From assembly GCF_014651675.1 (NCBI RefSeq), contig NZ_BMXI01000005.1:62001-126000 (forward strand): a stretch of DNA of 64,000 bases, in the 5' to 3' direction. Position 1 is the first letter of the stretch; each line of letters opens with the position of its first letter. Source of the stretch: Roseibacillus persicicus. Lineage in GTDB: Bacteria > Verrucomicrobiota > Verrucomicrobiia > Verrucomicrobiales > Akkermansiaceae. Shown here one piece after another: positions 42,082 to 59,716 of the stretch. Below the pieces are notes generated by a model, which worked only from the letters and a program-made list of their open reading frames with translations, had not been told where the DNA came from and made no database searches. The position numbers and the translations under genes were made by a program.

Positions 42082-44292
42082 CTAGGAGACCTTCACCGCG
42101 CAATACTTGTAGCTCGGTTGGCGGGAGTGGGGATCGAAGCTGGCGTGGGTTAGTTGGTTGACCTCCGGATAATGCATGGGGAGAAAGACCTGGCCGGGTT
42201 GCACGGTGGGGGCGTAGTAGGCGAGGGCGGTGATGCTGGCCCGCCGACTGGCGATGGTGACGGTCTGGCGGTCAGCGATGCCCAGGCGCCTGGCGTCGTC
42301 GGGGTGAATCTCGAGGTAGCATTCCTCGGGATAGAGCTTGCGCAGAATCTTGGATTTTCCCGTGCGGGTCTGGGTGTGCCACTGGCTACTGGTGCCGCGA
42401 CCGGTGAGAAGAATGAAGGGGAAGTCCTCGCAGGTGGGTTCGGCTAGAGGAGAGGGGTGGTCGAAGAGAAATTTGGCCTTTCTACTAGGGGTGTAGTAGT
42501 TGCCCTCCTCGTAGAGTCGACGCTCCTTCGCTGGGGGGGCGGCGTTGGCGGCAGCAGGGAAGGGCCACTGCACGCCTCCTTGTTCTTCCAGAAATTGATA
42601 GTCGGGGATTCCCGTGATGTCGCAGGGTTGTCCTTCGCTGAGGGCCTTGAGGGCTTGAAAGGCATCGGCTGGAGTGGGCCATTGTTTGAGAAACTCGCAG
42701 CCTCCCCAACGGTCGGCGAGGGCGTGGACGATGCGGAAGTCGCTCAGGGCCTGCCCCGGGGCCTGTTTGACCTGACGAATGACCCCAAAGCGGCGCTCGG
42801 AATTGATGAAGGTGCCATCCTTTTCCCCCCAACCCGCCGCTGGCAGAAAGAGGTCGGCCATTTGTGCCGTTTCGGTGCTTTGATACATGTCTTGCACCAC
42901 GAGGAAATCCAGTTTCTCGCGAATATGGGCGAACTTCTTTTGGGCAATCCAGGAATGATTCGGATTGGTGGCGATGATCCAAAGCCCCTTGATTTCGCCC
43001 CGGTCGATGGCCTCAATGATTTGGTCGTAGGCATAGCCGGGGGAGTCCTGAATCCGGTCCTCCTCGACTCCGAGGAGACGGGACACCTTCGCACGGTGCT
43101 CGGGATTGGCGAAGTCGTGACCACCGAGGAGGTTGGTGGTATTGGAAAAAAGGCGGGAGCCCATGGCGTTGCATTGGCCGGTGATGGAATTGGGTCCAGT
43201 GCCTGGTTTGCCAATGTTGCCCGTCATGAGGCAGAGATTGATGATGGCCTGGGCGGTGCGGACACCTTCGTAGCTCTGGTTCACGCCCATGGTCCACCAC
43301 CAGGAGACTCGCTTTCCGGGGTCGGAGACCAGGCGGGCGAGGGATTCGAGTTCGGCGACAGTTTGGCCACACTTCGGGGCGGTTTTCTCGGGGGAGTAGT
43401 CTTTGAGAAAGTCGCAGAAGTCCTCGAATCCTTCGGTCCTCGCCAAGCTCTCCTCGTCGATTCGGCCGTCGCGCACGATGCAATGGGCGAGGGTGTAGAG
43501 GAGGATGAGGTCGGATTTGGGCGTGAGAGGGACGTGGCGCGTTGCGACTTGAGCGGTCTCGGTCCGGCGGGGATCGATGACTACGATTTTTGGGTCACGC
43601 GTATTGTTCATCACCCTTTGCCACATGATGGGGTGCGCGATGGCGGGATTGGCTCCGATAAAGACGAGCACGTCGGACTCCTCGAAATCGGCGTAGGTGT
43701 AGGGAGGGGCGTCGAACCCGAAGGATTGCTTGTAGGCCACCACCGAGGTGGCCATGCATTGGCGGGTGTTGCCGTCGCCGTGTTTCGTGCCCATCCCGAA
43801 TTTTGCAAAGGAGCCTAAGAGAAAGAAATCTTCGCAGGTGATTTGGCCAGTAGAGATGAAGGCGACGGAGTCTTTGCCGTGTTTGTTTTGAATCGCTTGA
43901 AAGCGATCGCAGAAGGTATCAAGGGCGGTGTTCCAATCGGTGGGTTTTCCGTTAATCAGAGGGGCGCTTGCGCGATCGTCCGAATCGAGAACCGCAAGCG
44001 CTTCCCATCCCTTGGGGCAGGCCATCCCGAGATTGACGGGATAGTTTGCCGAAGGAGTGAGGTTGACCGCTTGCCCGCCCTTGAGAGAGATCTTTAGCCG
44101 ACAGCCCGTCGAGCAATAGCCGCACACCGAGGTCGTGGTGGAATCGGGGGCGAGCCCGGCGGGAACCTGACCGAGGCCGAATTTGCCGGGATGGCGCAGG
44201 AGCTCTTCGGTGTAGGGGCCGGTGCGGGCATGCAGCTGGGTGTGCTGGCGAACGAGGTCGGTGAGGCCTTTGTGGGTGGTGGGGATGGTCAT
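42082..44292 (-). CDS. nasA: Assimilatory nitrate reductase, molybdopterin subunit
   Basis: A 736-residue Mo-bisMGD oxidoreductase, started at ATG 44292 ([13 protein letters not shown]) rather than the TTG two codons earlier. The N-terminal [4Fe-4S] site is [11 protein letters not shown]...ACPKG (C-x2-C-x3-C then Cys about 27 residues on). Molybdopterin motifs follow: [26 protein letters not shown] (Cys as likely Mo ligand), and the C-terminal binding domain ([20 protein letters not shown]). It reduces nitrate to nitrite in the cytoplasm. There is no Tat signal. It forms a run with the DmsBC-type fusion, flavodoxin and nirA. The nitrate identity is supported by context; the fold alone also fits formate dehydrogenases. 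Confidence 0.92.
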
Positions 44293-44308
44293 GACCAAGC
44301 GTTCTGAA

Positions 44309-45838: not shown

Positions 45839-46444
45839 TCAGGCAGCGGCAGCTTCGGCGGGCTTGGCGAGAGATTCGCTGACCTGAGCGAGCCATTGGT
45901 CGAAGGGGTCATCGTAATCCACATCGCAGTCCACCCGCGGGCAGAGGCGCTGGCCTCCCAGCTTTTCGAGAACGGCATCGAACTCCTTCGCGCATTGGTT
46001 GAAATCGGGATACTCCGAATCGCCCAATCCAAGAACCGCGAAGTTTGTATTGGCGAAGGAAGGAGCGTCGTCGGCGTGGAGCAGTTCGTGCAGTTCCGCC
46101 GCATTGTCCGGTGGTTCGCCGTCGCCATAGGTCGAGGTGATGACGAGGAGATACTCGGCTTCCACGAGCTTCTGGGCATCGGAGTCAGCCATGTCGGTCA
46201 CGGTCGTTTGGTGTCCGGCTGCGGAAAGAGTCTTGGAGGTCTTTTTGGCCAGTCCTTCCGAAGTCCCGGTCTGCGAACCCCAGAGGATGTGCACCGCTTT
46301 GCCGGCGGGTGCTGGTGCGGATTGGGCAGGAAGAGCTTGGCTTGTGCCCGGAGCCTGTTGCACTTGCATGCGGGCGGCGAGGTAGCCGTTCAGCCAACCG
46401 ATCTGTTCGGGGGTGAAGGGCGCGTTGGGTGGGAGAGCAATCAT
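45839..46444 (-). CDS. Flavodoxin-domain protein (CysJ-type N-terminal half)
   Basis: A 201-residue protein starting at ATG. The N-terminus is APFTPEQIGWLNGYLAARM, the helix found at the start of CysJ-type flavoproteins. After an Ala/Pro linker comes a flavodoxin fold with the FMN phosphate loop GSQTGTSEGLA, then TYGDGEPPDNA and the third FMN loop LGLGDSEYPDF. The NADPH-binding half of CysJ is missing, so it depends on another reductase. It lies 21 bp after nirA and 39 bp before the DmsBC-type gene, so it probably donates electrons to NirA or carries electrons within the nitrate system. Confidence 0.85.
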   Translation of the reverse strand: MIALPPNAPFTPEQIGWLNGYLAARMQVQQAPGTSQALPAQSAPAPAGKAVHILWGSQTGTSEGLAKKTSKTLSAAGHQTTVTDMADSDAQKLVEAEYLLVITSTYGDGEPPDNAAELHELLHADDAPSFANTNFAVLGLGDSEYPDFNQCAKEFDAVLEKLGGQRLCPRVDCDVDYDDPFDQWLAQVSESLAKPAEAAAA

Positions 46445-46465: not shown

Positions 46466-48235
46466 TTAGGCTGCAATCGATTGAGTGTTGGCCGCCATCA
46501 GGCTCTTGAGATCCTCGATGTCGGTTCGGCGGGTGAACTGGGCAAAGGTTTCCCGGTCCTGACGGTTGGCCTGATAGGTCTTGAGCAAGCACTCCAAGAG
46601 GTCGGGAATTTGGGAGTAGGGGATTCCTTTAAAAGCTTCTTTGGCGACAAACTGGTCATCGTCCACGCCGCCGCCCAACACGATGTTGTAGCCATCGACT
46701 TTCTCGCCGGAGTCCAGCTTGACCTGCACTCCCATCATTCCGATGTCGCCGATGTAATGCTGGGCGCAGGAGTGATTGCAGCCAGTAAGGTGAATGTTGA
46801 TGGGCTGGTCGAGTTCGACCCGGCTTTCGAGAATTTTGGCCAGTTCCACCGAGTTCCCCTTGGTGTTGGTGGCGGCGAACTTGCATCCGGTGTTTCCCGT
46901 GCAGGCGATGAGGCCTCCGGAGATGGAGGTGGCGCTGTAGTGGCAGCCTGCGGCGATAATGGCCTTCTTGGCTTCTTCGACTTGTTCGTCGGGCACGTTG
47001 GGGATGATGAGATTTTGCCAAACGGTGAGGCGAACTTCTCCAGAGCCGTATTGGTCCGCGATGTCGCAGAGCTTGTCCACCATGTCGACGGGGGTGCGAC
47101 CGACCGGGATGACGACTCCGATGTAGTTGCGATCATCCTTTTGTTTGTAGACGCCCAGATGCCCGTGTTTGACCTTGGGCTTGGGTACTTCGCAGGATTC
47201 GAGGGGGATGTGGCGGAGGGGGAAGGTGAGCTTTTCGGCCGTTTCTTCCAGCAGCTTGGGGATGCCCCACTTGTCGACGAGGTATTTCAGGCGCGCCTTC
47301 TTGCGATTGGTGCGATCGCCATTTTCGATAAAGACCCGGAGGATGGCGGCGGCGACCGGAATGGTCTCCGATGGCGTTAGCAAGACACCCGAGTCAGTAG
47401 CGAATTGCTTGTGACCCGTGATGCCGCAGAGTTGCATGCGGAAGTAGACCCCGGGCTCGAGGCCATCGGTTTCTTCCTTCAGTCTCACCGCGTAGAAAGC
47501 GATGTCGTTGGTGTCGGCGCAGACCGAGATCGCGCCGCCGGAATCGAAGGAAATGTTGAACTTGCGGGGGAGTCCGTAGAGGTCGCGATTGTTCAGGATG
47601 TAGTGATGCATTCCTTTCGCCAAAGGCATGACGTCGATGAGCTCGTCCTTGTCGAACCCTGTGGTTGGGGTGGCGGTCACGTTGCGCACGTTGTCGGCGC
47701 CGGAACCCTTGGAGGTCAGTCCGAGGTCCACGAGTTTGTCGAGAGTGGCGGGCAGATTGGGCGGCATCAGCTCGCGCACCTGGAGGTTGCCGCGGGTGGT
47801 GACATCGCAGTAGCCGCTGCCCCAGTCGCGCGCGATTTCGGCGAGACCGCGGAACTGATGGGTCTTCAGCACACAGCCGGGGATGCGGGCGCGCAGCATG
47901 TAGGACTCCTGCGCGGGGGTGACATGGAACATGCCGTAGAATTTGAAGCGGAAGAGATCATCGCCCTCGACGAACTTGTTCTCCATGGCATGGGCCAGGA
48001 TGGTGTCGTAGCAGTCGAGTCCATTTTGCTCGTGTTTGATGCGCTCCTCCTTGCAGAGGTCGTCGATGGGGGTGCCGTGGACGGTCTCCTCCTGCGCGAC
48101 GGCTAGGCTGGCATCGTTGGTGAATTGTCCGTTGGCATTTTGACCCAGGAAGGGCAGTCCTTCGGCCTGAATTTGTCGAACCCCTTCCATGAAGCCGGAG
48201 AGGTAACTGGTTTGTTCTTGGGTGAAAGGTTGCAT
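46466..48235 (-). CDS. nirA: Ferredoxin/flavodoxin-type siroheme nitrite reductase
   Basis: A 589-residue enzyme starting at ATG ([18 protein letters not shown]). It has the duplicated NIR/SIR fold: first half near residues 100-180, with [12 protein letters not shown] and [13 protein letters not shown]; second half near 370-540. The siroheme/[4Fe-4S] ligands are CTGNTGC (C-x5-C) and [15 protein letters not shown] (C-x3-C). It converts nitrite to ammonium with six electrons in the cytoplasm. The start of the protein resembles the start of the flavodoxin protein. The gene follows the ATPase genes by 2 bp. Sulfite reductase is the alternative, but the neighbourhood favours nitrite. Confidence 0.92.
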
Positions 48236-48237: not shown

Positions 48238-49152
48238 TTACGCGACGGAAAGTTTTTGTTCGAGGTTGGTGAGCTCAGCCTTGTTCATGTAGCCTGTGAG
48301 ATTGTCTTTGGTATGGACCCGGGTCTCGCCCTTGATGTGTGAGCGCTGCTCAAGGAACGCGAGGAGGTGCTCGCGGTATTGAAAGAACATGGGGTCGTTG
48401 AAAACGGACTCGCGGTCGCGGGGGCGGGGAAAATCAATTTCCATAATCTCACCCACGCCGGCCTTCGGACCGTTGGACATCATCACGCAACGATCGGCCA
48501 TAAAGACTGCTTCGTCGACATCGTGGGTCACGATGAGGGCGGTGAGATTTTCGCGTGCGAGGATATCAATGATGACGTCCTGCAGTTCCATCCGGGTGAG
48601 AGAGTCGAGACGGCCAAAGGGTTCATCCAGAAGCAGGACTTTTGGCTGCAAGGCGATGGCGCGGGCGATGCCCACCCGTTGTTGCATCCCGCCGGAGAGC
48701 TCTTTGGGATACTTTTTCATCGAGTCACCCAGGCCCACAATGGAAAGGCTGTGCTCAACGATTTGCTTTTGCTCCGCTTTGCTCGCGTGGGGATAGACGC
48801 TCTTCACCCCCAGCATGACGTTGCCAAAAGCGCTGAGCCAAGGCATGAGGCAGGGAGCCTGAAAGACCACTGCACGGTCGGGGCCGGGGCCATCGATCTC
48901 CCGGTTGCCAACGATGATTCCGCCATCGGAAATTTCGTTCAGTCCGGCCAGCATGGTGAGAACCGTGGACTTGCCGCAACCCGAGTGACCGATTAGGGAG
49001 ATGAACTCGCCCTGACGAATATTGAGATTGAAGTCTTCTACCACCCGGAAGTCGTCGCCGTACGGATTGGGGTAGGCTTTGACGAGATTGGAAATCTCTA
49101 CAAACTTCGGATTGAGTTTTTCGGTCATGGGTTCGAGGACTTGGAGACTCAT
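48238..49152 (-). CDS. nrtD: Nitrate ABC transporter ATPase (NrtD-type)
   Basis: A 304-residue ATPase. Walker A is GHSGCGKST, the signature is LSGGMQQR, and Walker B is [12 protein letters not shown], followed by the switch His (THDVDEA). It has the nitrate/sulfonate-type loop [13 protein letters not shown]. The extra C-terminal tail is short, ending in [21 protein letters not shown]. There is no fused NrtA-like domain. Its start overlaps the other ATPase gene by four bases (49149-49152), so the two are probably made together and may form a heterodimer. It is only 2 bp before nirA. The permease and binding protein lie about 6-10 kb upstream. Confidence 0.88.
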
Positions 49153-50054
49153 GCTGCGGAGCGGGGTGTGCCGGGTTGGGCGGGTTTATTCTTAAGGCGG
49201 GGCGAACCGGAAATGGGGGTGAAGTCCTTGGGTCGAACGTCGGGCATGGGAATGACCGCGCTCGTGGAAAGTTCTTTGGACTCTTTGTTGAGCTGCATCA
49301 TGAAGGAGGTGATCTCCGACTTCAGGCGCATGTATTCCGGGTGGTCGTTGAGGGTCTGGCGGTCGCGCGGACGCTCCATGTTGACGACGAACTCTTTCGC
49401 GAGGGTGGCCTCGGGCCCCATGGTCAGGGGGATGATGCGGTCGGCCATGAGAACCGCTTCGTCGACATCGTTAGTGATCATGACCACGGTGCGTCGATCC
49501 GTTTCCCAGATATTGAGGATTTGGTCCTGCAACTCCGAGCGAGTGAGGGCATCGAGGGCGGAGAGTGGTTCGTCCAGAAGAAGGACTTCCGGATCGAGGG
49601 AAAGGGTGCGGGCCAAGGATGCGCGTTGGCGCATCCCGCCGGAGAGTTCGTGGGGGCGACGTTCTCCGGCATGGCCCAGCTTGACCATCTTGACGTAGTG
49701 TTCGATCTTTTCGTCAAGCTCGGCCTTGCGCAACTTGGGGAATGCGGTTTTTACGGCCAGTTTGATGTTGTCGTTGACGGTCAGCCAAGGGAGGAGGGAG
49801 TAGTTTTGAAACATGAGACCCCGGTCGGGACCGGGCTCCTTCACGACTTCACCCTTCATGCGAACCTCTCCGGTGGTGGGGGCCAGAAGCCCGGAGAGGA
49901 GGGACATGATGGTCGACTTTCCAGCGCCGGAGAAACCGATGATGGCGACGAATTCGTTTTCCTCCACCGAAAGGTTGATGTCCTTCAACACGACGGTTTG
50001 ATTGGTAGCCGGCCCAAAGGCGGCTGAGACGTTATCGAGCTCTAGAAAAGCCAT
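49149..50054 (-). CDS. Nitrate ABC transporter ATPase, second copy (NrtC-type ATPase domain)
   Basis: A 301-residue ATPase starting at ATG. Walker A is GFSGAGKST, signature LSGGMRQR, Walker [13 protein letters not shown]; the switch position reads TNDVDEA, with Asn where His is normal. The [18 protein letters not shown] loop is typical of the nitrate/sulfonate/taurine class. Residues after about 240 ([14 protein letters not shown]...) form a Ser/Lys/Pro-rich tail, unlike NrtC, whose C-terminal half is an NrtA-like sensor. That sensor part may correspond to the free protein at 59717-60766. Because of the Asn, this copy could be the less active half of a heterodimer. Confidence 0.85.
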
Positions 50055-50215
50055 GCGATTTACTCAGCGTTTAATGGGCCAAATTACCCTGGTGGAGCAC
50101 GATTGATTATGAATCGGGCTCATGGTAAGAAAGTGAATTCTTTTTGGGTGATTCATGGAAAAGCGGGTGGCAGGTTCTCTGTGAATCTCGATTGGAATTG
50201 GTAAAGCGTTGACAA
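50055..50215. other. Gap between globin and the ATPase genes
   Basis: About 160 bp, the largest gap between 42082 and 55344. No gene. It contains CGATT-gattatg-AATCG (near 50101-50118), a small inverted repeat on the promoter side of the ATPase gene. It may hold the promoter for the nrt/nir/nas run; no -10/-35 pair is chosen. Confidence 0.35.
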
Positions 50216-50734
50216 TCAGGCGGCTACTGTTCCGTAAGATGCCTCTTTCATTACCGTTGCCAAGGTGGTGTAGGTGATGGTCCAGGCCTCCTTGGTTTCG
50301 GGAGTGAAATCATCGCCCAAGCCCTTTTCCAAAGTGTCGAGCAGGGCAGCTCCAACGGTGTCGTAATGGGAGGCTTTCACTCCGTATCCCACGTGTCGTT
50401 TGCCGAGGGCCTGCACCGTTGGAACGAGCTCTCCGAGGGTATCGAGTCCCTTCACAGCGGCGCCGATCATCATCATCAGTTTCTTTCCCTGTTCTTGCAT
50501 GTTGGAATTGGCGAACATGGGTTTGAGGTTGGGATCGAGCTCGAAGAGTTTTCGGTAGAAAAGTTCGGCAGCGGTGCTCGAGATAGGCTTCACTTTCTCC
50601 CAGGAGTCTTGGACGAGCTTCTTCTGTTCGAGGGTCAGAGGACCTTCTTGTTCTTCTTTCATTGGTTGACTTGTTTCGGGTTGTTCGGACTCGGATGGTG
50701 AGCCTCCAAATAGTTTTTTCAGGAATGGTAGCAT
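50216..50734 (-). CDS. Single-domain globin with NO-dioxygenase-like haem pocket
   Basis: A 172-residue globin with a 33-residue N-terminal extension (MLPFLKKLFGGSPSESEQPE start). Aligned by eye to E. coli Hmp, Tyr60 (LFYRKLF) fits B10, Gln82 (EQGKKLM) fits E7 and His114 (KRHVGYGV) fits the proximal F8 ligand. That Tyr/Gln/His set is typical of flavohaemoglobins and related NO-detoxifying globins. The reductase domain is missing, so a separate reductase is needed. It lies downstream of three c-type cytochromes and next to nitrate assimilation genes, so NO or nitrite stress handling is a reasonable inference. No export signal, so it is cytoplasmic. Confidence 0.88.
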   Translation of the reverse strand: MLPFLKKLFGGSPSESEQPETSQPMKEEQEGPLTLEQKKLVQDSWEKVKPISSTAAELFYRKLFELDPNLKPMFANSNMQEQGKKLMMMIGAAVKGLDTLGELVPTVQALGKRHVGYGVKASHYDTVGAALLDTLEKGLGDDFTPETKEAWTITYTTLATVMKEASYGTVAA

Positions 50735-50799
50735 GGTCGTTTTGGGGTTGGGGCCCGGCGAACGATGTCCGCCGGGCCCATTCGGTTATTGGCAATTTT

Positions 50800-51195
50800 T
50801 CACTTGGGGGCGGCCAGCATGTAGTTGACGGCATTGGTGACCTCTTCGTCTGTCAGGGAGGGGGTGCCTCCCCGGGCAGGCATCTTTCCGTCCGGTCCTT
50901 GAAAGCCGTTCAAAGCGTGGTCAAGGAGGACGGCGAGACCCTGTTCCGAGCGGGTGTCCCATTCGGATTTTTTGGTCAAGGCGGGGGCTCCCTCCTCGCC
51001 TTCATCGTGGCAGCCGGAGCACTCCATGAGGTAAATCTCGCGCCCGGAAGCGAGCGCGGGGTCTTCTGGAATCCAGTCCCAAGGGTGTTCGGGGGGCGGC
51101 GGACTCTTTTCGCTCACTGTATCCGACTCTTTCGGTGAGTCGCATGAAGTGAGAATGAAAAGGCCAAGGGGGACGATGGCGGGAAGAATTTTCAT
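50800..51195 (-). CDS. Monohaem cytochrome c lipoprotein
   Basis: A 131-residue lipoprotein with signal MKILPAIVPLGLFILTSC; Cys18 is the acylation site. A Pro/Glu-rich linker follows, then one haem-binding motif, CSGCH, and a likely Met ligand in the GKMPARGG stretch, the pattern of small cytochrome c5/c-555-type proteins. The protein ends soon after (LTDEEVTNAVNYMLAAPK). It should shuttle electrons on the periplasmic side, probably for the multihaem protein encoded upstream. TCTAACA overlaps the region just upstream of the start. Acceptor unknown. Confidence 0.88.
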   Translation of the reverse strand: MKILPAIVPLGLFILTSCDSPKESDTVSEKSPPPPEHPWDWIPEDPALASGREIYLMECSGCHDEGEEGAPALTKKSEWDTRSEQGLAVLLDHALNGFQGPDGKMPARGGTPSLTDEEVTNAVNYMLAAPK

Positions 51196-51226
51196 CTAAC
51201 AGCTAGCTGGTTGTTTGAGTGATGAC

Positions 51227-51856
51227 TTAGGAAGTCGGGATGCGAATGACGATTCCTCCCATGACATCGTTCTTCTTGAATTCCGGATAGTCAGGTTGCC
51301 GGTTTTCGTGGTTGTTGTGGCATTCCCAGCAAGCGGGAGCGACTGCTTTGTCGGGGTAGATTCCGACGAAATATTCTTTCCCCGCAATGGTTTCGGTGCT
51401 GGTCCATTTCTTTCCGTAAAACTCGCTGTTGGGATCGGAGACCTCCTTCAGGCCCTGCTCTACAGCGGGGGTTTTCTTCTTGGCGTTCTCCATGTTGAGC
51501 GGCCAAGACGATTGGAGGGAGTAGGAGAATTCGAAGGGCTTGTCTTCCACTCCATCGACTTCCTCGGCTCCTTCGCGGAAGAATTGGGCGGGGAGAAGAA
51601 GGGCCTTCTCTTCCTGCCATTCTTCGTGCGCCTTGATTACCTTGTCGTCATTGACGAGCCGGTTGACGATCTTGCTGGCGTAGACTTTGCGGTCGGATTT
51701 GAGCACGATGTAAAGCGCTTCGGCGACTTGTTCGGCATCGTAGCCTCCCGAAGTGCTGGCTTCATCTTTTCCGGATTCGCAAGAAGCGAGTCCGAAGGCC
51801 AGGGTGGTGACACCGGAGACAAAGGCCGGTGCGACCCATTTTCTATTCTTTTTCAT
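51227..51856 (-). CDS. Tll0287-like (DUF3365) haem lipoprotein
   Basis: About 209 residues, started at ATG 51856 (MKKNRKWVAPAFVSG). The signal ends in LASCESG, a lipobox. The middle (about residues 35-140) is a PAS/GAF-like sensory region in the family. CWECHNNH supplies a single c-type haem. The tail (FKKNDVMGGIVIRIPTS) matches the family end pattern of Tll0287-like proteins. These are thought to be haem-based sensors or small electron carriers in the periplasm. The start overlaps the end of the multihaem gene by 14 bp, so translation is coupled. Confidence 0.8.
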   Translation of the reverse strand: MKKNRKWVAPAFVSGVTTLAFGLASCESGKDEASTSGGYDAEQVAEALYIVLKSDRKVYASKIVNRLVNDDKVIKAHEEWQEEKALLLPAQFFREGAEEVDGVEDKPFEFSYSLQSSWPLNMENAKKKTPAVEQGLKEVSDPNSEFYGKKWTSTETIAGKEYFVGIYPDKAVAPACWECHNNHENRQPDYPEFKKNDVMGGIVIRIPTS

Positions 51857-53324
51857 TTGTACGGCTATTATTTTGTTGGGTTGTAGTGGGCGGGGGTGAG
51901 ACCGCATTCTCAGGGGGAGAAGGGTTGGGGGATTCGAGGTAATTCTTCAGGGCGATGATTTCCTCGTTCCCACGTTTGATGGCCGCGTCGACGGTCCACG
52001 AGATTCCGGGATGGGCCTTAGTCGGGCGGGTGGAAAAGTTGTCGGCGATGACCTCGCGGTCAGCCATCGCATCCATCGCGAACTGCAGTCCGTGGCAGTC
52101 CATGCAGACGTTGCGAATCATCTTTTCGTTCGGGGTGAGGTTGGCGTTTTGGTTGTGGTTGACCACGTGGTGATCGTCGCGTTCCTCGCGCGGCAGGTGG
52201 CAGGTGGCGCAGGACACGCCGGTTCGCTCTTCGCCGGTACCTGCGAGTTCGGCAGCCCAGAGGGCGAAGTGAGGGGACTTGTCGTAGTTGCGGGTGTGTT
52301 CGTCGTCGTGGCATTGGATGCACGCCTGATGTGCGGCGAACTCGCGGTCATAGCGGTGGGGTTGATGGCACGAGGAGCATGACAGGTCGCGATGAGCGCT
52401 AGTGGCCTTCAAGCTTTGCCGGGCTTGAGTGGGGGTCATGGGCGAGAGCTCGGGATGGGCGAGACGCATCCCGTGTTTTCCTTTCAAAAAATCGGTGACT
52501 TCGACGTCGTGGCATTTCTTGCACGTGTGATGGTCTGGAGCGGGCATCCAGACGCCGGAAACAGGGTCGTCGTGGCAATCCGAGCAATTGATGCCAGCGG
52601 CGGCGTGAGCGGTGTGCTCCCAGTCCAGATTGATTGCAGGGTCGGTCAGTTTGGGCGAGGGGGCGTCTGCTTCTTCGATGGTCAGGGCCGCTCGCTTTTT
52701 GTTTCCCTCGCTCAACCATCGCTGGAGCGCATTCACTTCGGCTACCTTTTGCTCTTTCAGGTTGTTTGCTTCGCCGTAGTGCTTGAGGAGAAAGCTGGGA
52801 GCAAGGGCCATGTTGTCGTGGTAATTGTGACAGCCCGCAGTGGCACAGGTGTGGAACTTCAGGTTTTGATGGGACTCCAGATTCTCCAAAGTCACCTGAT
52901 GGCAGTGGGCGCAATAGTCCTGTGGGATGGTGACCCCCATGTCGTGGGTGATCTTCTCGTTATGCTCAGCATGGCACTCGACACAGTTCATGGCATTAAC
53001 GTGTTCCAGAAAGATAGCGTTCTCGGGATTCTTGAACTTGCGGGTTGGGTGGGAATCGGAGAATTGATTGAGGTCCTCCCCGTGGCAGTTGGTGCAAGCT
53101 GAATTGGGCACCCCGGAGGAGGTAAAGACGTTCTCCTTTTCCTCCGCGGTATGGCAGGCGCTGCAAGCCATCTCGATCTGGTAGTGACCGTGCGTCGTCT
53201 TGCCTGGTAGGAGTAAGGTCTTGTCCTCGGCCTGCAAGAGCACGTGGCCTAACCATGCGGATAACCCAATGGTGACCAGCAGCCAGAGCAGAACGCTTTT
53301 TCGTTTTTGGATCCAATGTGCCAC
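51843..53324 (-). CDS. Multihaem (11) c-type cytochrome, membrane-anchored
   Basis: A 493-residue protein starting at GTG (no ATG is available; upstream stop is 7 bp away). It has an N-terminal membrane helix (SVLLWLLVTIGLSAWLGHVL). I count ten CxxCH motifs (CSACH, CTNCH, CVECH, CAHCH, CSDCH, CKKCH, CSSCH, CIQCH, CATCH, CMDCH) plus one CATAGCH, a C-x4-CH type. Several extra His lie between them. The C-terminus is Pro/Asn/Thr-rich. The family (cytochrome c3/multihaem type) moves electrons on the periplasmic side. It is encoded next to an FAD-membrane fusion, which may be its donor or acceptor. A catalytic role in nitrogen-oxide reduction cannot be excluded. Confidence 0.88.
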   Translation of the reverse strand: MAHWIQKRKSVLLWLLVTIGLSAWLGHVLLQAEDKTLLLPGKTTHGHYQIEMACSACHTAEEKENVFTSSGVPNSACTNCHGEDLNQFSDSHPTRKFKNPENAIFLEHVNAMNCVECHAEHNEKITHDMGVTIPQDYCAHCHQVTLENLESHQNLKFHTCATAGCHNYHDNMALAPSFLLKHYGEANNLKEQKVAEVNALQRWLSEGNKKRAALTIEEADAPSPKLTDPAINLDWEHTAHAAAGINCSDCHDDPVSGVWMPAPDHHTCKKCHDVEVTDFLKGKHGMRLAHPELSPMTPTQARQSLKATSAHRDLSCSSCHQPHRYDREFAAHQACIQCHDDEHTRNYDKSPHFALWAAELAGTGEERTGVSCATCHLPREERDDHHVVNHNQNANLTPNEKMIRNVCMDCHGLQFAMDAMADREVIADNFSTRPTKAHPGISWTVDAAIKRGNEEIIALKNYLESPNPSPPENAVSPPPTTTQQNNSRTNEKE

Positions 53325-53331
53325 GGGGTTG

Positions 53332-55344
53332 TTAGTAGAGGTAGACGGACAAAATGTGGAAGGTGAGGAGGACGGGCAGGGGCCAGAAGAGGGCCAGGTG
53401 CGCGTAAGTCAGAATGGGTCGAAAGCGACGGGCGGTGAGAGCGGTTCGGGAGGTGCCTGCGCCCTCAAGCGCGGCGAGGATTCCGGCGAAAGCCCCCAGG
53501 AGATTGAGGCCGACAAAGGTGAGCATGAGCCAGAAATTGAGATTGTGGCCGAAGCGGAATCCAGTGTGAACAAAGAGCGCCACCAGAGAGGTGAGTCCGA
53601 AGATGGTGTGGAAAATCCGCCAGTGGGCAAAGTGGCCGAAGCGGAACCACTTGAAGCGCTTCCGCAGGGAGAGAAGAAGCCCAATGAGAAAGATTCCCAT
53701 CAGAGAGAATCCGGTGATCTGCTTGATGACGGATTCCCTCCAGAATTTGTCAACCTGATACCACCAAGACTCCACGGAATCCGCCATCGCAGGAGGGGGC
53801 GCCAGAATAGTGATCAGTGCGGCCAACAAGGCGAGGGAGGAAAAGGTGAGAAGCGCCTTGGAGCCTTTCGGTTTGGTGGAATTCGGCGATCCACAGAGTT
53901 CGTGCAAGAGCGGCTCGCAGGAGCCGCAAACAGTTGAAGCTCCCGTTTCGTTGGCCAAGAGTTGGGGATCGTTGCGGCATTTTTTGAGACAGGAGACGAG
54001 CTGCCCTTTATTGACCCCCATGCAGTTGCAAACGATGCGATCGTCGGGCCATTGGGCGACCGGGGTTTCGCCGCCACCGGGGAGAAGGAGGCCCTCGGCC
54101 GCAAAGTATTCTTCTTCCTTTTTGCGAATGAGCTGCCGGGTGGCATAGAGGGATTGGATCTTGCCACCCTCCGGCCAGGAGCCCACTCCCAGTCCTCCTT
54201 TGAGCTCTCCTTTGGGGCCGATGATGAGCATGCGGTAGACCTCATCGGTTTCGAACTCTACGCGACGCCCTTCTTCCAGTGGGTCGCCGATGGTGACCAC
54301 ATCGACCCCCAGCATCTTCAATCGCGTGGAAAGATCCGGATTGGTAAAAGGCTTGCTTCGCTGTCCTTCCAATCGAGCGACGAGGTGCCGGGCCATGGCG
54401 TAGCCAGGGGCCGCAAGTCCATAGATGGAACCGTCGAGAAGAGCGCATTCCCCGATGGCAAAGATTTCGGGATGGGAGGTTTCGAAGTGGTTGTCGACCA
54501 CGATTCCTCCCCGCAATCCGGTATCGAGTCCCGCTTCTTTGGCGAGCTCGCTGTTCGGGGTGATCCCGGCCGAGATAATGACGAGGTCGCAGCTGAGAGG
54601 AGCCCCTTTGTCAAACTCGAGCGTGAGACCGTTTGGTTCCTCCTGAATGACAGTTGATCCCTTGTTGAGGAAAAGCTCAATGCCCTGGGCCTCAATAGAC
54701 TTCCTGAGCAGGGAGGAAGCCGGTTGATTGAGCTGCCGGGGCATCAGGAAGCTGGCACGCTCAATGACTGAGGCCTGCAGCCCGAGTTTCTGGACTGCCT
54801 GGGCGGCTTCCAATCCGAGAAGACCGCCCCCGATGACTGCGGCTCGCTCTTTCTCTTTAGCTGCAGCGACTATCTTGGCAAGGTCCGAGATGTTTCGATA
54901 GAGAAAGACCTTTGAAGAGTCCTTTCCCTCGATGGGAGGGACAAAGGGGCGTGAGCCGGTGGCCAGGACGAGAACGTCATAGTTGAGCTTCTGTCCATTG
55001 GATAGGGTCACGCACTTGAGGTCGGGTGCGATCTCGATCGCTTCCGTGTTGGTCAGGAGGGTGATTCCCTTTTCCTGATACCACTCGGCGCTCTTGAAAA
55101 TAAGTTGCCTGGCATCCTGATGGACGACGTAGGAGGACAAGTTGATTCGGTCGTAGGCCGGGTAGGGTTCTTTCCCTACAACGGTTACCTCGAGATTTGA
55201 GAAGACTTTGCTCTGGGTGAGATATTCACAGAACTTGCCCCCGACCATTCCGTTCCCAATCACCAGCAAGCGGGAGCCTTTGGGTAAGGCCGGAATGCGG
55301 CTTGCCTTGTTGCTCTTAGCTTGTCCATGGAATGCGGATTTCAC
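53332..55344 (-). CDS. FAD reductase/BFD [2Fe-2S]/b-type membrane fusion
   Basis: A 670-residue protein from GTG 55344. The first 435 residues match the FAD/NAD(P) half of NirB: GxGxxG-type sites at about 28-38 (VIGNGMVGGKF) and 169-182 (AVIGGGLLGLEAAQ), and FAD motif IFAIGE near 295. A BFD-like [2Fe-2S] site follows: Cys439, Cys441, Cys473 and Cys476. The siroheme part of NirB is absent. Five membrane helices take its place (about 498-516, 543-561, 577-595, 604-624, 645-668), with His at 579, 593, 600, 649 and 663 as possible haem b ligands. It would pass electrons between NAD(P)H and the membrane or periplasm. It starts the redox operon. Confidence 0.82.
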   Translation of the reverse strand: MKSAFHGQAKSNKASRIPALPKGSRLLVIGNGMVGGKFCEYLTQSKVFSNLEVTVVGKEPYPAYDRINLSSYVVHQDARQLIFKSAEWYQEKGITLLTNTEAIEIAPDLKCVTLSNGQKLNYDVLVLATGSRPFVPPIEGKDSSKVFLYRNISDLAKIVAAAKEKERAAVIGGGLLGLEAAQAVQKLGLQASVIERASFLMPRQLNQPASSLLRKSIEAQGIELFLNKGSTVIQEEPNGLTLEFDKGAPLSCDLVIISAGITPNSELAKEAGLDTGLRGGIVVDNHFETSHPEIFAIGECALLDGSIYGLAAPGYAMARHLVARLEGQRSKPFTNPDLSTRLKMLGVDVVTIGDPLEEGRRVEFETDEVYRMLIIGPKGELKGGLGVGSWPEGGKIQSLYATRQLIRKKEEEYFAAEGLLLPGGGETPVAQWPDDRIVCNCMGVNKGQLVSCLKKCRNDPQLLANETGASTVCGSCEPLLHELCGSPNSTKPKGSKALLTFSSLALLAALITILAPPPAMADSVESWWYQVDKFWRESVIKQITGFSLMGIFLIGLLLSLRKRFKWFRFGHFAHWRIFHTIFGLTSLVALFVHTGFRFGHNLNFWLMLTFVGLNLLGAFAGILAALEGAGTSRTALTARRFRPILTYAHLALFWPLPVLLTFHILSVYLY

Positions 55345-55461
55345 TCCCTGTCACTCAGCACTCAATTTGCCAGCGGCCTTCTTCATTCCTCTGGAACTAG
55401 GAAAAGATGCGCAGTAAAAGATGAGTGGAGTTAATGGGAAGTTTCGCTCCCGTATTTCGAA

Positions 55462-55486
55462 ATAATGAATGACCGAAATTCATTAT
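55462..55486. promoter_or_regulatory. Perfect inverted repeat upstream of the redox operon
   Basis: ATAATGAAT (55462-55470) and ATTCATTAT (55478-55486) are exact inverted copies with a 7-base spacer. They lie about 120 bp upstream of the FAD-fusion start in a region free of genes. A regulator-binding site is likely; the regulator is unknown. Confidence 0.5.
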
Positions 55487-55503
55487 CTCTTTGGAGACAA
55501 AGT

Positions 55504-55541
55504 AAAAAAAGAGCCCCGGGACGGGGTCCCGGGGCTCTTTT
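55504..55541. terminator. Strong bidirectional terminator after the permease gene
   Basis: GAGCCCCGGGAC (55511-55522) pairs perfectly with GTCCCGGGGCTC (55526-55537) around GGG. Read on the minus strand, seven T follow; on the plus strand, four T follow. It lies about 25 bp after the permease stop and separates that gene from the redox operon. Confidence 0.92.
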
Positions 55542-55565
55542 CGTCATGGAACGAGAGCGGAGTCT

Positions 55566-57200
55566 TTAGGCCGTTGCTGAACCGTCATCAAAGGAAACAA
55601 GGCGCTGGAGGATAATCATCAAGCGGTCAAGGAAGAAGCCGATGACGCCCACCACGAAACAGGCGAGGATGATGTTGGCAAAGGATTGTGAGGAGCCATT
55701 TTGGTATTCGTCCCAGACAAATTTACCGAGTCCGTCGGAGGAGGAAAGAGCTTCTGCGGCAATCAAGACCATCCAGCCGACCCCGAGGGAGATGCGCAAT
55801 CCGGCAAAGACCAGAGGGAGCGATGAAGGAATGACAATCTTGAAAAGGCGGGACCAGAATCCAAGTTTCAGGACCTTGGCCACATTCAAGTGATCCTTGT
55901 CGATGGCCGAGACCCCCAGAGCGGTGTTCACCAAGGCTGGCCAGAGCGCGCACATTGCCACGGTGGAAGCTGAGAAGATCATGGCCGGATTGGTTTGGAG
56001 GAATGCCAGGGGGTTGAGGGCATCGTTCATGAAGAGGAAGAGGGGATGACTGGCGGGGTCGGGTAGGAAGAATGCTCCAATGACGATTTGGAAAATGAGG
56101 AGCCAGACCACTGGAGAGACCGGGCGAAAGATGGAAATGATGGGAGTCATGCACGCCATGAAAATCCGGTTGAGTCCGCACATGATACCGAGAGGGATGG
56201 CAATGACGGCTGCGATGATGAATCCCACGAAGACAGTTGCGATGGAGCGCTTGGTTTGCCAGAAAATAGTTGCGGTCCGGGCGTAGACCTGTTCGGAAGT
56301 GCTTTCGGCCCGTTCGCTATTGCGCACTACAGACTTGGCTTCCTTGAGAGCTTCTTTGCCAGTGGTGGCGGCAGCGAGTTGCGCGGAATCTTCTTCGGCC
56401 TTCGCCAAAAGAGCCTCTCGTTTGATGCTCAGGTTTTCCTTGGTCAGGATGGCGAGGCGTTTTTTGTAGTGCTGGACTTCGTCTTCTATCTTGTTGGCGG
56501 CCAACTGGCTGGCTTTCACTTCCACGGGTGGATTGTCCCGAATGAGGTCCATCTTGTCCTTGAGAACGGATTCGGCTTCTCCTTCCTTTTCTTCAACGAG
56601 AGCGTTCTTTTTTACGAGGGCGATGAGGGCTTCGGGGGAGGCGTCCTTGCTGGCGACTTGCTCGGCCAAGAGGTCGAGAGCTTCTGTACGTTTTTGTTTC
56701 GCTGCCTTGTTCTGTGCCTTCAAGGCGTCATAGCGGGCCTGGATTGGATCGATTTTGCTGGCAAGGGTCACTTTCGCAGCGGCGGCTACCTCGGCGGATT
56801 TTTCCTGGAGAGCGGCTGCCTTTTGTTCCAGTTCAACCAGCTCTTTTTCCACTAGCTTGATTTCGTCAAGACGGTCCTGACCCGTGAGGTTGAAGGCGCG
56901 TTCCTTTTCGTTCTCGCGTTCATCGAAGCGACGGGCGTCGGCGTAGGCTTCGAGGACCTTGCCCGGGGTGGGGACTTCTCCGGACTTGGTCTTGTGGTTC
57001 GGTCCCGCGATGTGCCAGATGAGGATGCAGAGGGACACGAAGAGGGTTGGAAGCAAGAGATACTTGGCGATATCCTTGACCTGCTTTTGGGGTTCTTCTC
57101 CGAAGAGAAGTCGCACCGGCGGATCGAGGACCTTGAAACCGCTGATATCGACGGCTTTCAGGATGCCGTATTTGATTTTGTCTTTTGGAGAATCGGACAT
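55566..57200 (-). CDS. nrtB: Nitrate ABC permease with large coiled-coil insertion (NrtB-type)
   Basis: A 544-residue inner-membrane protein, about twice normal NrtB length. Residues 1-85 hold the N-terminal region and first helix ([20 protein letters not shown]) and the usual [10 protein letters not shown]. Residues about 90-305 are an insertion of charged, Ala/Glu/Lys-rich heptads with no Gly/Pro-rich breaks, a long coiled coil (for example [20 protein letters not shown]). The permease core resumes at about 310 ([20 protein letters not shown]), with [13 protein letters not shown] and the EAA-like loop ([20 protein letters not shown]). The core matches nitrate/sulfonate transporters. The function of the insert is unknown. 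Frame is open throughout. Confidence 0.88.
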
Positions 57201-57226
57201 GGAAGTGGGTGTTGAGCTGCGGCTAT

Positions 57227-57238
57227 ACCCTGCAGGGT
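57227..57238. promoter_or_regulatory. Perfect palindrome upstream of the permease gene
   Basis: ACCCTGCAGGGT is a perfect 12-bp palindrome 27 bp upstream of the permease ATG, in a 150-bp gap. It could be an operator. A chance match is possible. Confidence 0.35.
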
Positions 57239-57350
57239 CTGGGCCAAATCCCGATTTTGGTCAGATTGGGCGTTGGGAAAGATCGATTTGAATCATGAAC
57301 AGTATTCATGGAAAACCGGAATAAAGGGGAAGGTGTTTTATGCGAGTGGG

Positions 57351-58217
57351 TTAGGATTTTTGGAGAATGATGCGGAAACCGATGTTGTAACTTCTGCTCT
57401 CAGGCCCCGAGCTATAGCGGTAGGCGGAGCGGCAACTGTTGGCCACGCGGTTCCAGGTTCCCCCACGGATGATGCGGCCGTCCCCGGTATCGGGGCCTCT
57501 CGGATCGAGGCCGCCGGAGGCCTGATCGGCATACCAGTCCGCGCACCATTCATAAAGGTTGCCGTGCATATCATAGAGCCCCCAGGGATTTGCGGAGAAG
57601 GATTTCACGGGAGTCGTTTTCTCCCGATAGAGGCCTTCCTTCTCGATTCCGTAGGGCTTCTTTCCGTAGAAGTTGGCCTGCTCGGCGGAGAGGGTGTTGC
57701 CAAAGTGAAAGACCGTGGTGGTTCCCGCCCGACAGGCGTATTCCCATTGGGCCTCGGTTGGCAGTTGGTAGGAAAGGTCGGGGGGCAAGGTTCCCGATTC
57801 TTTTTCGAGCTTGGTGAGTTTCAGGCAGAAGGCATTGGCATCAGACCAGTTGACGAAGCTCATCGGTTGGGAAGGGCCGAGTGCCGAGGCTTTGGCTACA
57901 AGCTTGGCCCCACGGCCGATGGGACCGACCTTGGAGTCGATCTGCTCTTGAATGGTGGTGCCCATTATTTTTTCCCACTGAGCTTGCGTGACCTCGCTTT
58001 CCATCATGAGAAAGGGCTTGGAAATGGTAACTGTGACCTGGTCTTCGTCTTTGCCGCGACCTTCTTCGGAAGGTGGGCTCCCCATTTGAAATTCGCCAGC
58101 CGGGATGGGAACGAGCTTGATGCCTAGGGAATTGGTCCAGGAACTGAGAAGGGTAGGCTCTTGGGCCGGAGAGTGGGAGGCCAGAGCAAGGGTGAGAGCG
58201 ATGAAGGGGAGTTTCAT
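57351..58217 (-). CDS. SUMF1/formylglycine-generating-enzyme-like exported protein
   Basis: About 288 residues from ATG 58217 (signal peptide MKLPFIALTLALASHSPAQ); the frame opens earlier. It shows the SUMF1 fold: LVPIPAGEFQMGSPPSEEGR, a PVTQ-type motif written SEVTQAQWEKIMG, PMSFVNWSDANAFC, LPTEAQWEYACRAG, NPWGLYDMHGNLYEWC and RIIRGGTWNRVANSCRSAYR. Real FGE uses a cysteine pair in this last region; here one Cys is visible (NSC), so the copper/cysteine chemistry is doubtful. It sits between the NrtA gene and the permease in a nitrate cluster, which is unusual. The function could be binding or scaffolding; no substrate is claimed. Confidence 0.8.
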   Translation of the reverse strand: MKLPFIALTLALASHSPAQEPTLLSSWTNSLGIKLVPIPAGEFQMGSPPSEEGRGKDEDQVTVTISKPFLMMESEVTQAQWEKIMGTTIQEQIDSKVGPIGRGAKLVAKASALGPSQPMSFVNWSDANAFCLKLTKLEKESGTLPPDLSYQLPTEAQWEYACRAGTTTVFHFGNTLSAEQANFYGKKPYGIEKEGLYREKTTPVKSFSANPWGLYDMHGNLYEWCADWYADQASGGLDPRGPDTGDGRIIRGGTWNRVANSCRSAYRYSSGPESRSYNIGFRIILQKS

Positions 58218-58248
58218 GGAGCGAGCAGGAAAAGAGACTGGGGGGGAT

Positions 58249-58286
58249 AAAAAAGCTGCCTGAAGGAATCTCTTCCTCCAGGCAGC
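58249..58286 (-). terminator. Intrinsic terminator directly after nrtA
   Basis: On the minus strand GCTGCCTG pairs with CAGGCAGC (58279-58286 with 58255-58262), extended by an AGGAA/TTCCT inner stem, and TTTTTT follows. It lies 29 bp after the NrtA stop and 32 bp before the SUMF1 start. Confidence 0.88.
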
Positions 58287-58314
58287 AGGGCACACCAGTG
58301 ACTAGGGGAAGGAT

Positions 58315-59676
58315 TTACTGGGTCGCAAGGGACTCGGGGTCCTTGTTCCCGATTTTGTGAGAATTCAGATATTCGATGGGCTTCTTGCCGTCGAACTCGA
58401 TGCCGTCGATGAAGTCCGTGGTCGGCTCTTTATAGCCATCGAAGTCTTCTGCTGGCACTTCCTCTGCGGTGAGGGAGCCTTCTTCGATGAGGGAGGCTGC
58501 TGCGCTCATGTAAACTTCAGGGAGATACACGCTCTTCGCAGTCTCGGCATACCATGAGGCTGGTTTGGGTTCAGTGATTTGTCCCCAGCGACGCATTTGA
58601 GTGAGGAACCAGACGCCATCGGAATAGTAGGGGTAGCTGGCCATGTATTTGAAGAATACGTTGAAGTCAGGCATCTCGCGCTTGTCGGTCTTTTGGAAAA
58701 AGAAGTAGCCGGTCATCGAGTTCTTGATGATGTCGAAGTCCGCGCCCACGTAGTTGGGCTGCGAAAGGATGCGGCAGGCTTCGTCGCGATTGATGAGCTT
58801 GCCGTCTTCCTCCGCATCGAGCCATTTTCCAGCTTTGATGAGGGCCTTGGTGACCGCGATGTGGGTGTTGGGGTTAGCGTCTGCCCAGCTCTTGGTGACG
58901 CCAAAGACCTTCTCCGGATTGTTCTTCCAGATGTCATAGTTGGTCACGACGGGAACGCCGATGCCCTTGGCTACAGCCTGCTGGTTCCAGGGTTCGCCCA
59001 CGCAATAGGCGACGTTTTTCCCGGATTCCAAGGTTGCTGGCATTTGGGGGGGAGGGGTGGTGGAGAGCTCGATGTCGCCATCGGTGAAGCCTTTGAGGTC
59101 GGTCGAGGTGTAGAAGCCGGGATTGATTCCAGCGGCAGCCAACCAGTAGCGAATCTCATAGTTGTGGGTGGAGACCGGAAAGACCATACCCATGGGGAGC
59201 TTCTTTCCATCTTCCTTGGCCTCATCAACGATGGGTTTCAAGGAGTCGGCCGTGATAGGATGGGGGGGAGTGGGACTGTCGAGCTTCTCGTCATTTTCCT
59301 GCATTTGCTCCCAGATGTCATTGGAAACAGTGATGCCGTTGCCGTTGAGGTCGAGGGTGTAGGAAGTGACGATGTGCTCCTTGGTGCCAAAGCCGATGGT
59401 CGCTGCGATGGGTTGTCCGGAGAGCATGTGGGCTCCGTCGAGTTCTCCCGTGATGACGTTGTCGAGAAGCTGTTTCCAGTTCGGTTGGGCGATGACTTCC
59501 ACTTGGAGACCTTCTTCTTCGAAAAAGCCTTTTTCCTTGGCGATAACGATGGGGGCGCAGTCGGTGAGTTTAATGAAGCCGAACTTGAGTTCGTCCTTCT
59601 CGACGTCGAGTTGTTCTGCTCCGAGGGGGGCGATGCTTGCTACTGCCAGGGCAGTAGTGATGTTTTTTAGGTTCAT
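58315..59676 (-). CDS. nrtA: Nitrate ABC transporter substrate-binding protein (NrtA-type)
   Basis: A 453-residue exported binding protein. The N-terminus is a signal peptide ([20 protein letters not shown]), with no lipobox Cys, so the mature protein may be soluble or signal-anchored. The family start ([20 protein letters not shown]) is followed by the ligand-site motifs: [23 protein letters not shown] and [11 protein letters not shown]. The C-terminal part ([20 protein letters not shown]) matches NrtA of cyanobacteria. It binds nitrate or nitrite for NrtB/C/D. It is read after the second NrtA-like gene with a 40-bp gap, and a strong hairpin follows its stop codon. Confidence 0.93.
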
Positions 59677-59716
59677 GGTATTGGTTCTGTTCTAGGGGCG
59701 CTGTTGTTTTTTGGGG

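Follow-up and report, generated by a model that had tools for sequence, protein, structure and literature searches.

What electron route a compact group of flavin and haem protein genes could serve within a nitrate-assimilation cluster is the question raised by positions 50216-55344 of a 64,000-nucleotide stretch of Roseibacillus persicicus DNA (contig NZ_BMXI01000005.1), which as a whole is called the window in the following. The five genes of this operon are located on the minus strand, inside a cluster which also holds nirA and nasA. The first three of them, coding for a fusion of a flavoprotein with a membrane domain, an 11-haem cytochrome c and a haem lipoprotein, represent a conserved cassette that is found in many phyla, and the remaining two, for a small cytochrome c and a globin, are optional members. 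We give an even chance to the reading that the cassette constitutes an NAD(P)H-fed transmembrane electron relay which, together with the globin, is accessory to nitrate assimilation and deals with nitric oxide (NO), probably shielding the cell from NO that arises in the course of this assimilation. The operon and the elements preceding it are as follows, with the basis of each assignment in brackets:

53332..55344, minus strand: fusion protein of 670 amino acids with a GTG start, composed of a NirB-type FAD/NAD(P)H oxidoreductase, a BFD [2Fe-2S] part and a five-helix membrane domain (family matches, alignment, model)
51843..53324, minus strand: membrane-anchored 11-haem cytochrome c of 493 amino acids (motif count, Pfam, fold)
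51227..51853, minus strand: Tll0287/DUF3365-like (haem-Cache) lipoprotein with one haem c and without the axial cysteine (Pfam, alignment)
50800..51195, minus strand: small cytochrome c lipoprotein with one haem, optional member (Pfam, locus survey)
50216..50734, minus strand: single-domain globin with Y60, Q82 and H114 (Pfam, alignment)
55506..55542, minus strand: strong intrinsic terminator in the gap between nrtB and the cassette (terminator scan, fold z)
55462..55486, no strand assigned: inverted repeat with 9-bp arms and a 7-bp spacer, candidate operator (sequence)

In the order of transcription, the coordinates place the genes 7 bp apart, overlapping by 11 bp, 31 bp apart and 65 bp apart; the operon is flanked by nrtB on one side and by two nrt-type ATPase genes on the other. 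The terminator (55542-55506 on the minus strand), formed by a 17-pair stem and a T run with a fold z of -6.2, separates nrtB from the operon, and the inverted repeat at 55462-55486 reads ATAATGAAT-7-ATTCATTAT. A preliminary description of the locus, made from the letters alone, had spoken of five tightly spaced or overlapping redox and haem genes, preceded by a strong terminator and an inverted repeat and lying between two nitrate-transport parts, and all of these features were found. The repeat was not recovered as a shared operator: in a scan of 14 other loci, it was not found in the region preceding the fusion gene. Both the Tll0287-like protein and the small cytochrome c contain a lipobox-like cysteine, as judged by eye.

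Conservation and distribution of the gene group

When the genome collection was searched with a profile derived from eight 11-haem proteins, 396 relatives were obtained, and the loci of the best 80 were surveyed; genes were counted when present on the same strand within 6 kb of the 11-haem gene. The membrane part of the fusion protein was found in all 80 loci, its FAD part in 77, and the Tll0287-like lipoprotein in 79, the remaining locus (L090) having the gene at a distance of 6.4 kb. Among the three loci without an FAD match, L062 starts near a contig end, and L082 and L093 possess the membrane part as a separate gene. Less constant are the single-domain globin (58/80) and the small cytochrome c (28/80). 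A second sample, for which genomes were drawn evenly from the class of a Hydrogenophilales carrier, comprised 19 carriers among 229 genomes. In all of its 20 loci, three of which belong to genomes already sampled, the fusion membrane part, the 11-haem gene and the lipoprotein gene occur on one strand and in the same order, and 12 of the 20 have a single-domain globin match within the 1.5-kb flank. Since the same set recurs across phyla, the grouping of these genes is far beyond chance. The fusion protein, the multihaem cytochrome and the globin, for which a survey of co-occurrence had been proposed, are thus conserved together; of the five-gene unit described initially, the first three genes stand as the core, and the globin and the small cytochrome c do not belong to it. 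Genome G614 contains two copies of the 11-haem gene (L145 and L150), each accompanied by the membrane part and the lipoprotein gene, and gave no NasA match at the search threshold.

The 80 carriers span eight phylum labels, i.e., Pseudomonadota, Verrucomicrobiota, Planctomycetota, Poribacteria, Lentisphaerota, Nitrospirota, Acidobacteriota, and Thermodesulfobacteriota (a Dadabacteria bin), and the idea of a module confined to one lineage was therefore rejected. The module looks old, because the cytochrome tree is mostly grouped by phylum (9 label changes, the minimum possible being 7); more than one change of phylum label in the tree is no proof of transfer. No match was obtained in the plasmid collection at E 1e-20, and no carriage was confirmed in viral contigs. 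Among 387 genomes drawn from the phylum of the window, 8 contain the fusion protein; this number excludes three of 11 membrane-domain matches (G013, G254, G126), which are not the fusion. A published description of the cassette was not found in the open-licence literature, and the accessible parts of PMC3770913 and PMC9230427 revealed nothing about it.

The fusion protein and the 11-haem cytochrome

The fusion protein matches positions 1-465 of the 794 positions of the NirB model and thus shares with NirB the FAD/NAD domain and the BFD cluster; because the match ends there, the siroheme/Fe4S4 half is considered absent, NIR_SIR is likewise absent in the Pfam scan, and a membrane domain takes the place of this half. 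The residue counts for the fusion, the cytochrome and the globin include the respective window protein and leave out 7 of the 80 fusions, 1 cytochrome and 3 globins that were cut or out of the length range. According to Pfam, the head is a Pyr_redox_2 domain and not an FNR-type FAD/NADPH domain. The NAD-binding glycines G172, G174, and G177 are present in 74/74 fusions, and position 195 is acidic in 58/74 and His or Gln in 16/74, an acidic residue at this position being, as we assume, typical of NADH use. The BFD part reaches 23.1 bits in the window protein (Pfam cut-off 26) and 35.9 bits, i.e., above the cut-off, in the relative L060. Its cysteines C439, C441, C473, and C476 are kept in all 74 full-length fusions, and it aligns with Pseudomonas Bfd (6e6r) over 51 residues with a Z score of 7.8.

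In a structure model of the BFD and membrane parts (mean pLDDT 92.5, pTM 0.85), five membrane helices are present, the fifth of which is kinked. The third and the fifth helix carry two H-x13-H pairs, H579/H593 and H649/H663, and of these histidines H579, H593, and H649 occur in 74/74 and H663 in 73/74 full-length fusions. The four near-invariant residues would be expected to bind two bis-His haems b, and with the head in the cytoplasm the helix order suggests that H579 and H649 face the inside and H593 and H663 the outside. The view that a NirB-like flavoprotein has lost its siroheme half and gained five membrane helices is confirmed, and the membrane histidines, named beforehand as one of two points on which the suggested electron route could fail, are consistent with haem ligation. 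For the membrane domain, scans of four versions with Pfam yielded only matches below the cut-off (Ferric_reduct, Ni_hydr_CYTB, DUF4405, and others) and hence no name, and the domain may have a fold outside those listed; Ferric_reduct (PF01794) appeared in L093 only (E 0.073, below cut-off) and did not match the window part.

NOX proteins and ferric reductases combine an NAD(P)H-flavin head with two haems b that are held by four histidines across a helical bundle. The fusion protein resembles them in its cytoplasmic NAD(P)H-flavin head and in the four histidines for two haems b in a helical bundle, and differs from them in the Pyr_redox_2 type of the head, the extra [2Fe-2S] cluster and the dedicated periplasmic multihaem partner. 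H-x13-H is also the histidine spacing of bc1 cytochrome b. With the cytochromes b of bc1 and b6f complexes the fusion shares two H-x13-H helices in a four-helix bundle, and its bundle can be aligned with cytochrome b6 (VIA, Z 8.8, rmsd 4.0, 121 residues), HyaC (8.3), cytochrome b561 (7.6), NOX5 (7.2), and bc1 cytochrome b (6.7); unlike the bc1 and b6f proteins, it is joined to a flavoprotein, no Rieske protein or cytochrome c1 is encoded among the five genes, and the fold match is no better than that to unrelated bundles. A relative of the membrane domain (459 amino acids) is encoded in locus L023 of genome G013 (7005-11543, plus strand) between a cNMP-binding/Fe4S4 protein and a ten-haem cytochrome, an arrangement which is possibly a sister type of transmembrane relay.

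The count of eleven haems in the cytochrome, stated in the preliminary description, is confirmed by ten CxxCH motifs and one CX4CH motif. The protein has a single N-terminal anchor helix, an N-terminal part with five haems that is c3-like by Pfam, and a C-terminal part with six haems on the scaffold of hydroxylamine oxidoreductase (HAO) and nitrite reductases. In a sequence search with the C-terminal haems, octahaem and pentahaem nitrite reductases were the best matches (E 1.5e-8), c7-like and other multihaem cytochromes following lower in a list of 23. With a structure model of moderate quality (mean pLDDT 74), Foldseek retrieved 13 chains, every one of them an HAO or nitrite-reductase type of protein (the best, 6h5l, with a probability of 1.00 but an E value of 1.9e-3). 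A further fold comparison retrieved 29 entries; most of these are HAO, hydrazine dehydrogenase or nitrite reductases (6hif, Z 8.8), and the list closes with MtrA and an octahaem protein of Shewanella. These matches of the C-terminal half by sequence and fold speak for an enzymatic role of the 11-haem protein itself, as a reductase of nitrite, hydroxylamine or NO within the HAO/NrfA class, a proposal that we nevertheless regard as very unlikely in view of haem 4, which we take to be the catalytic haem of the HAO/octahaem/NrfA family, bound in many nitrite reductases by a CxxCK motif. When one HAO-like octahaem protein from a carrier genome served as reference, the uncut C-terminal half gave two alignments, with either haem 9 or haem 7 paired with haem 4, which disagree on single haems. 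With the half split in two, haems 6-7 are matched to haems 2-3 of the reference in the best alignment of one piece (96%, E 3.4e-9), and haems 8-11 to its haems 5-8 in that of the other (95%, E 6e-8); a pairing of haem 9 with haem 4 of the HAO-like protein, which would favour an enzyme, is given by a weaker alternative (E 2.7e-6 vs 6e-8). As the best split alignments leave haem 4 unpaired, the catalytic haem most likely has no counterpart, and an HAO-type catalytic haem appears to be missing. Moreover, CxxCK was absent from all 80 sequences of the 11-haem protein, and twelve further histidines, kept in 74 to 80 of the 80, are sufficient as sixth ligands of the eleven haems. Because of the apparent lack of the catalytic haem, the 11-haem protein looks like a wire and not like an enzyme. 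The six C-terminal haems keep the order of the HAO, octahaem nitrite reductase and NrfA family, from which the protein differs by this apparent lack, by five extra N-terminal haems and by its membrane anchor. The Uet system (UetJ) and the undecahaem cytochrome of Tenderia can be set beside it by description only, as given in the accessible parts of the respective papers (PMC10734462, PMC5371394).

The proposed relay and its possible connection to nitric oxide

According to our preferred reading, NADH would reduce FAD, and FAD would then reduce the [2Fe-2S] cluster of the BFD part, from where electrons would traverse the membrane via two stacked haems b and pass into the membrane-anchored 11-haem cytochrome in the periplasm; their end point would be the lipoprotein haem c and also, in loci that have it, the small cytochrome c. 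In the cytoplasm, the flavin/[2Fe-2S] head could keep the globin reduced for NO removal, by analogy with Flp and Bjgb of Bradyrhizobium. The sequences themselves show the parts of the cassette with their order, conservation and genomic link to nitrate assimilation, and they make the cofactor ligands likely; the loss of the catalytic haem from the 11-haem protein is well supported. We infer the path and its outward direction, NO as its substrate or signal, and the globin as a client of the same reductase; outward electron transfer would most simply explain why an NAD(P)H head is combined with two haems b, a multihaem wire and a haem lipoprotein that is exposed. The suggestion of an unusual electron route across the inner membrane is supported both by the co-conservation of the genes and by the membrane histidines for two haems b. 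The NAD-binding head and the outward-facing haem chain would also suit a valve for surplus NADH, whose electrons would leave via periplasmic cytochrome c and a terminal oxidase under nitrate-uptake or carbon overload, with the small cytochrome c of 28 of the 80 loci passing electrons on and the globin as a separate passenger. Such a valve is improbable, since it accounts neither for the association with nitrate assimilation nor for neighbours of the NsrR-like and NasT-like kind, nor for the replacement of one globin class by another in the same position. A relay which, together with the globin, handles NO or surplus electrons represents the best reading of the cassette as a whole.

The lipoprotein at the presumed end of the relay matches PF11845 above the cut-off, and a phmmer search with the window protein gave no solved structure up to E 5. 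A CxxCH motif is present in 79 of the 80 module lipoproteins, the 80th (L105) being interrupted by a contig end, and none of the 80 has a cysteine between the aligned positions 36 and 174, position 79 being occupied by W, F, Y or H. A cysteine at position 79 does occur in nine other DUF3365 proteins, which come from 9 of the 13 carrier genomes searched, that of the window among them; five of the 30 sequences picked for this set (L160, L161, L168, L171, L173) are the neighbouring cytochrome and were not counted. The second DUF3365 protein of the window genome (L162; G000, contig C3, 303269-303748) is located outside the cassette and has the axial cysteine. As this cysteine is absent from the module lipoproteins, an open or weakly held sixth site at their haem is possible.

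DUF3365 has been described as a haem c Cache domain in a 2026 preprint, the accessible part of which reports fast NO release for a stand-alone protein with the axial cysteine and likewise for its C59A variant, slow NO release for a signalling-type protein without this cysteine, and redox roles for the stand-alone domains (PMC12889525). The module lipoprotein agrees with these Tll0287/sCache_heme proteins, as far as they are covered there, in PF11845 and CxxCH, and differs from them in lacking the axial cysteine and in belonging to a conserved electron-transfer cassette. The slow release by the signalling-type protein, together with the missing cysteine in 80/80 module lipoproteins, would fit a sensor, in which the lipoprotein binds NO or senses the redox state and the relay reports to the cytoplasm. 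We consider a sensor very doubtful indeed: the trio has no signalling domain, an 11-haem wire and an NADH head would be costly for sensing, and the stand-alone domains have been given redox roles. Furthermore, the loss of the cysteine alone does not make an NO trap, because the C59A variant still released NO fast (accessible part of PMC12889525).

The window globin matches Pfam Globin with 67 bits. Y60, Q82, H114, and Y124 are present in 56/56 globins, and the first three presumably correspond to Tyr B10, Gln E7, and His F8 of the globin fold; judged by its sequence, the protein carries the residue set of NO-dioxygenase-type single-domain globins. In L076, L090, and L094 a truncated globin (PF01152) replaces it, and by likeness also in L086. 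Two membrane proteins resembling the cytochrome c maturation proteins ResB/CcsA (by eye) are encoded between the truncated globin and the fusion gene of L090 (4104-9986, plus strand). A cluster of Rrf2-like genes was found in 7/80 loci. For the four regulators tested, NsrR was the best NCBIfam match in every case, with scores below the NsrR cut-off and above that of the Rrf2 superfamily. The Rrf2 gene is next upstream of the lipoprotein gene in L066, L076, L086, and L090 and follows the globin gene in L087. NsrR boxes were searched with the consensus given in the accessible part of PMC1274295, and shuffled sequence yielded about 2.9 matches per locus at up to 3 mismatches. L066 has two sites with 2 mismatches (6115 and 6193) between the Rrf2 and lipoprotein genes; the best site of L090 (one mismatch) is far from the cassette, and the boxes gave no support at loci other than L066. 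As a whole, the neighbours of the locus point to NO.

The nearest studied precedent that we know of is the pair Bjgb and Flp of Bradyrhizobium, which protect against NO, Flp being also required for growth with nitrate, according to the accessible part of the report (PMC4724949). In both cases a single-domain globin and an NAD(P)H/FAD protein are part of a nitrate-assimilation operon, and in Bradyrhizobium both matter for NO resistance. Unlike Flp, the flavoprotein of the cassette continues into BFD and a membrane domain, and genes for an 11-haem cytochrome and a haem lipoprotein come after it. A bolder proposal, which seems to us unlikely, is a widespread and undescribed NO-handling side branch of respiration: NADH electrons would flow via the NirB-derived flavoprotein-cytochrome b and the HAO-derived wire without catalytic haem to the open haem c of the Cache-fold lipoprotein, which would reduce NO as terminal reductase, and a globin of either class would remove cytoplasmic NO.

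The relation to nitrate assimilation

The surroundings of the operon in the window comprise the following genes:

55566..57200, minus strand: NrtB, permease of a nitrate-type ABC transporter (best match ntrB, below cut-off)
48238..50054, minus strand: two ABC ATPase genes of the nitrate-transport type (family match and neighbours)
46466..48235, minus strand: nitrite reductase of the NirA family (above family cut-off)
42082..44298, minus strand: molybdopterin assimilatory nitrate reductase of the NasA type (named from family and context)

The nasA gene is preceded by a gene (44309-45838, minus strand) whose product joins an Fe4S4 protein of the DmsB-like kind to a DmsC-like membrane anchor (PF04976), a pairing of genes that was found again in relatives and suggests a quinol-fed assimilatory nitrate reductase. 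At 45839-46444 (minus strand), a CysJ-like flavodoxin half without the NADPH-reductase half is encoded, whose homologues in L021, L022, and L109 have 549-579 amino acids. A protein similar to FGE-sulfatase (PF03781) is encoded between nrtA and nrtB (57351-58295, minus strand), and its homologues adjoin the fusion gene in L029, L031, and L032. An outer-membrane protein of the Alginate_exp type, perhaps a nitrate porin, is encoded at 61838-63109 (minus strand), and a cluster of such genes occurs in 18/80 loci.

Carriers of the cassette are enriched for assimilatory nitrate reductase. In the draw from the window's phylum, all 8 fusion genomes are among the 46/387 with NasA at E <1e-200 (hypergeometric 2e-8; the count at E 1e-100 is 57/387, and 46 was used); as only five genera are involved, these genomes are not independent. 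In the second draw, NasA was present in 16/19 carriers compared with 95/229 genomes (9e-5). Of the 80 surveyed loci, 50 were followed up at the genome level, and 47 of these 50 carriers have a NasA-like enzyme; at E up to 1e-95 the number is 46, and the weaker match in G424 may be another molybdoenzyme. Genes for ANTAR response regulators, two of which were tested, occur in 11/80 loci; regulators of this kind are of the NasT type.

In genome G237, from the genus of the window, the ATPase genes come directly after nrtB, and nirA, a gene for a 194-amino-acid flavodoxin-like protein, DmsBC and nasA are also present; the cassette is absent, and the genome contains no match to the membrane part of the fusion protein. 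Since a nitrate cluster exists there without the cassette, the relay would be an accessory and not the sole electron source of nitrate assimilation, and judging from this genome the reduction of nitrate or nitrite as such does not seem to depend on it. For a role as an electron donor of the Flp/NasC type, required for nitrate reduction by NasA, the observation at hand is likewise that this otherwise similar cluster has no cassette. A further candidate role of the fusion protein, that of a reductase serving the short flavodoxin-like protein or NasA, is weakened, since both of these and DmsBC are present in G237, where the fusion is absent. The role in nitrite or NO handling suggested in the preliminary description is therefore retained in part: the context speaks for it, through the globin, the link to nitrate assimilation and, in some loci, neighbours similar to NasT and NsrR, and a part in nitrate or nitrite reduction itself does not seem to be required.

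The same comparison bears on an inward relay, in which periplasmic cytochromes or quinol would supply electrons to the 11-haem protein; from there, the haems b and the [2Fe-2S]/flavin head would deliver them to a cytoplasmic nitrate or nitrite reductase, thereby sparing NAD(P)H. BFD-type clusters are known partners of Nas enzymes. Besides this and the genomic association with NasA, a BFD-like CxC...CxxC stretch at the C-terminal end of NasA in L048 (by eye) and the unfused membrane subunit in L093, two genes downstream of a nasA-like gene, are in favour of inward flow. We nevertheless judge it to be unlikely. The nasA gene of the window adjoins its own Fe4S4/DmsC-like partner gene, G237 lacks the cassette and yet has NirA, DmsBC, NasA and the flavodoxin-like protein, the NAD-binding glycines kept in every full-length fusion would be unneeded for inward flow, and the NasA relatives of carriers fall into several identity classes.

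Several observations weigh against the preferred reading of an outward, NO-related relay. Unrelated helical bundles of talin (Z up to 12.0) score above the cytochrome b proteins in the fold comparison, for which reason the fold match alone proves little, and the membrane part in L082 and L093 is not fused to the flavoprotein. In the accessible part of the preprint, removal of the axial cysteine from the stand-alone protein (C59A) gave no tight NO binding (PMC12889525). Without a single-domain globin match within 6 kb are 22/80 loci, which makes the globin dispensable to the trio; 4 of these have a truncated globin, and some reach a contig edge. No clear NsrR is encoded in the genome to which the window belongs, the best match reaching 24% identity (E 1e-3), and a search of window positions 49000-61000 for NsrR boxes, allowing up to 3 mismatches, found none. 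Genes for nitrate transport or reduction, sought with the window proteins, were found in the fetched flanks of only 28/80 loci, and there is no NasA match in 3/19 and 3/50 carriers.

A three-gene electron relay of such a make-up occurs in many phyla and goes together with nitrate assimilation. If the preferred reading is true, nitrate assimilation in the carriers would bring its own membrane-crossing NO or redox protection, the flavoprotein head of a nitrite reductase would have been converted into a transmembrane oxidoreductase of the NOX-like kind, to which a multihaem protein belongs as a fixed partner, and a group of stand-alone haem-Cache lipoproteins would gain a defined electron partner.

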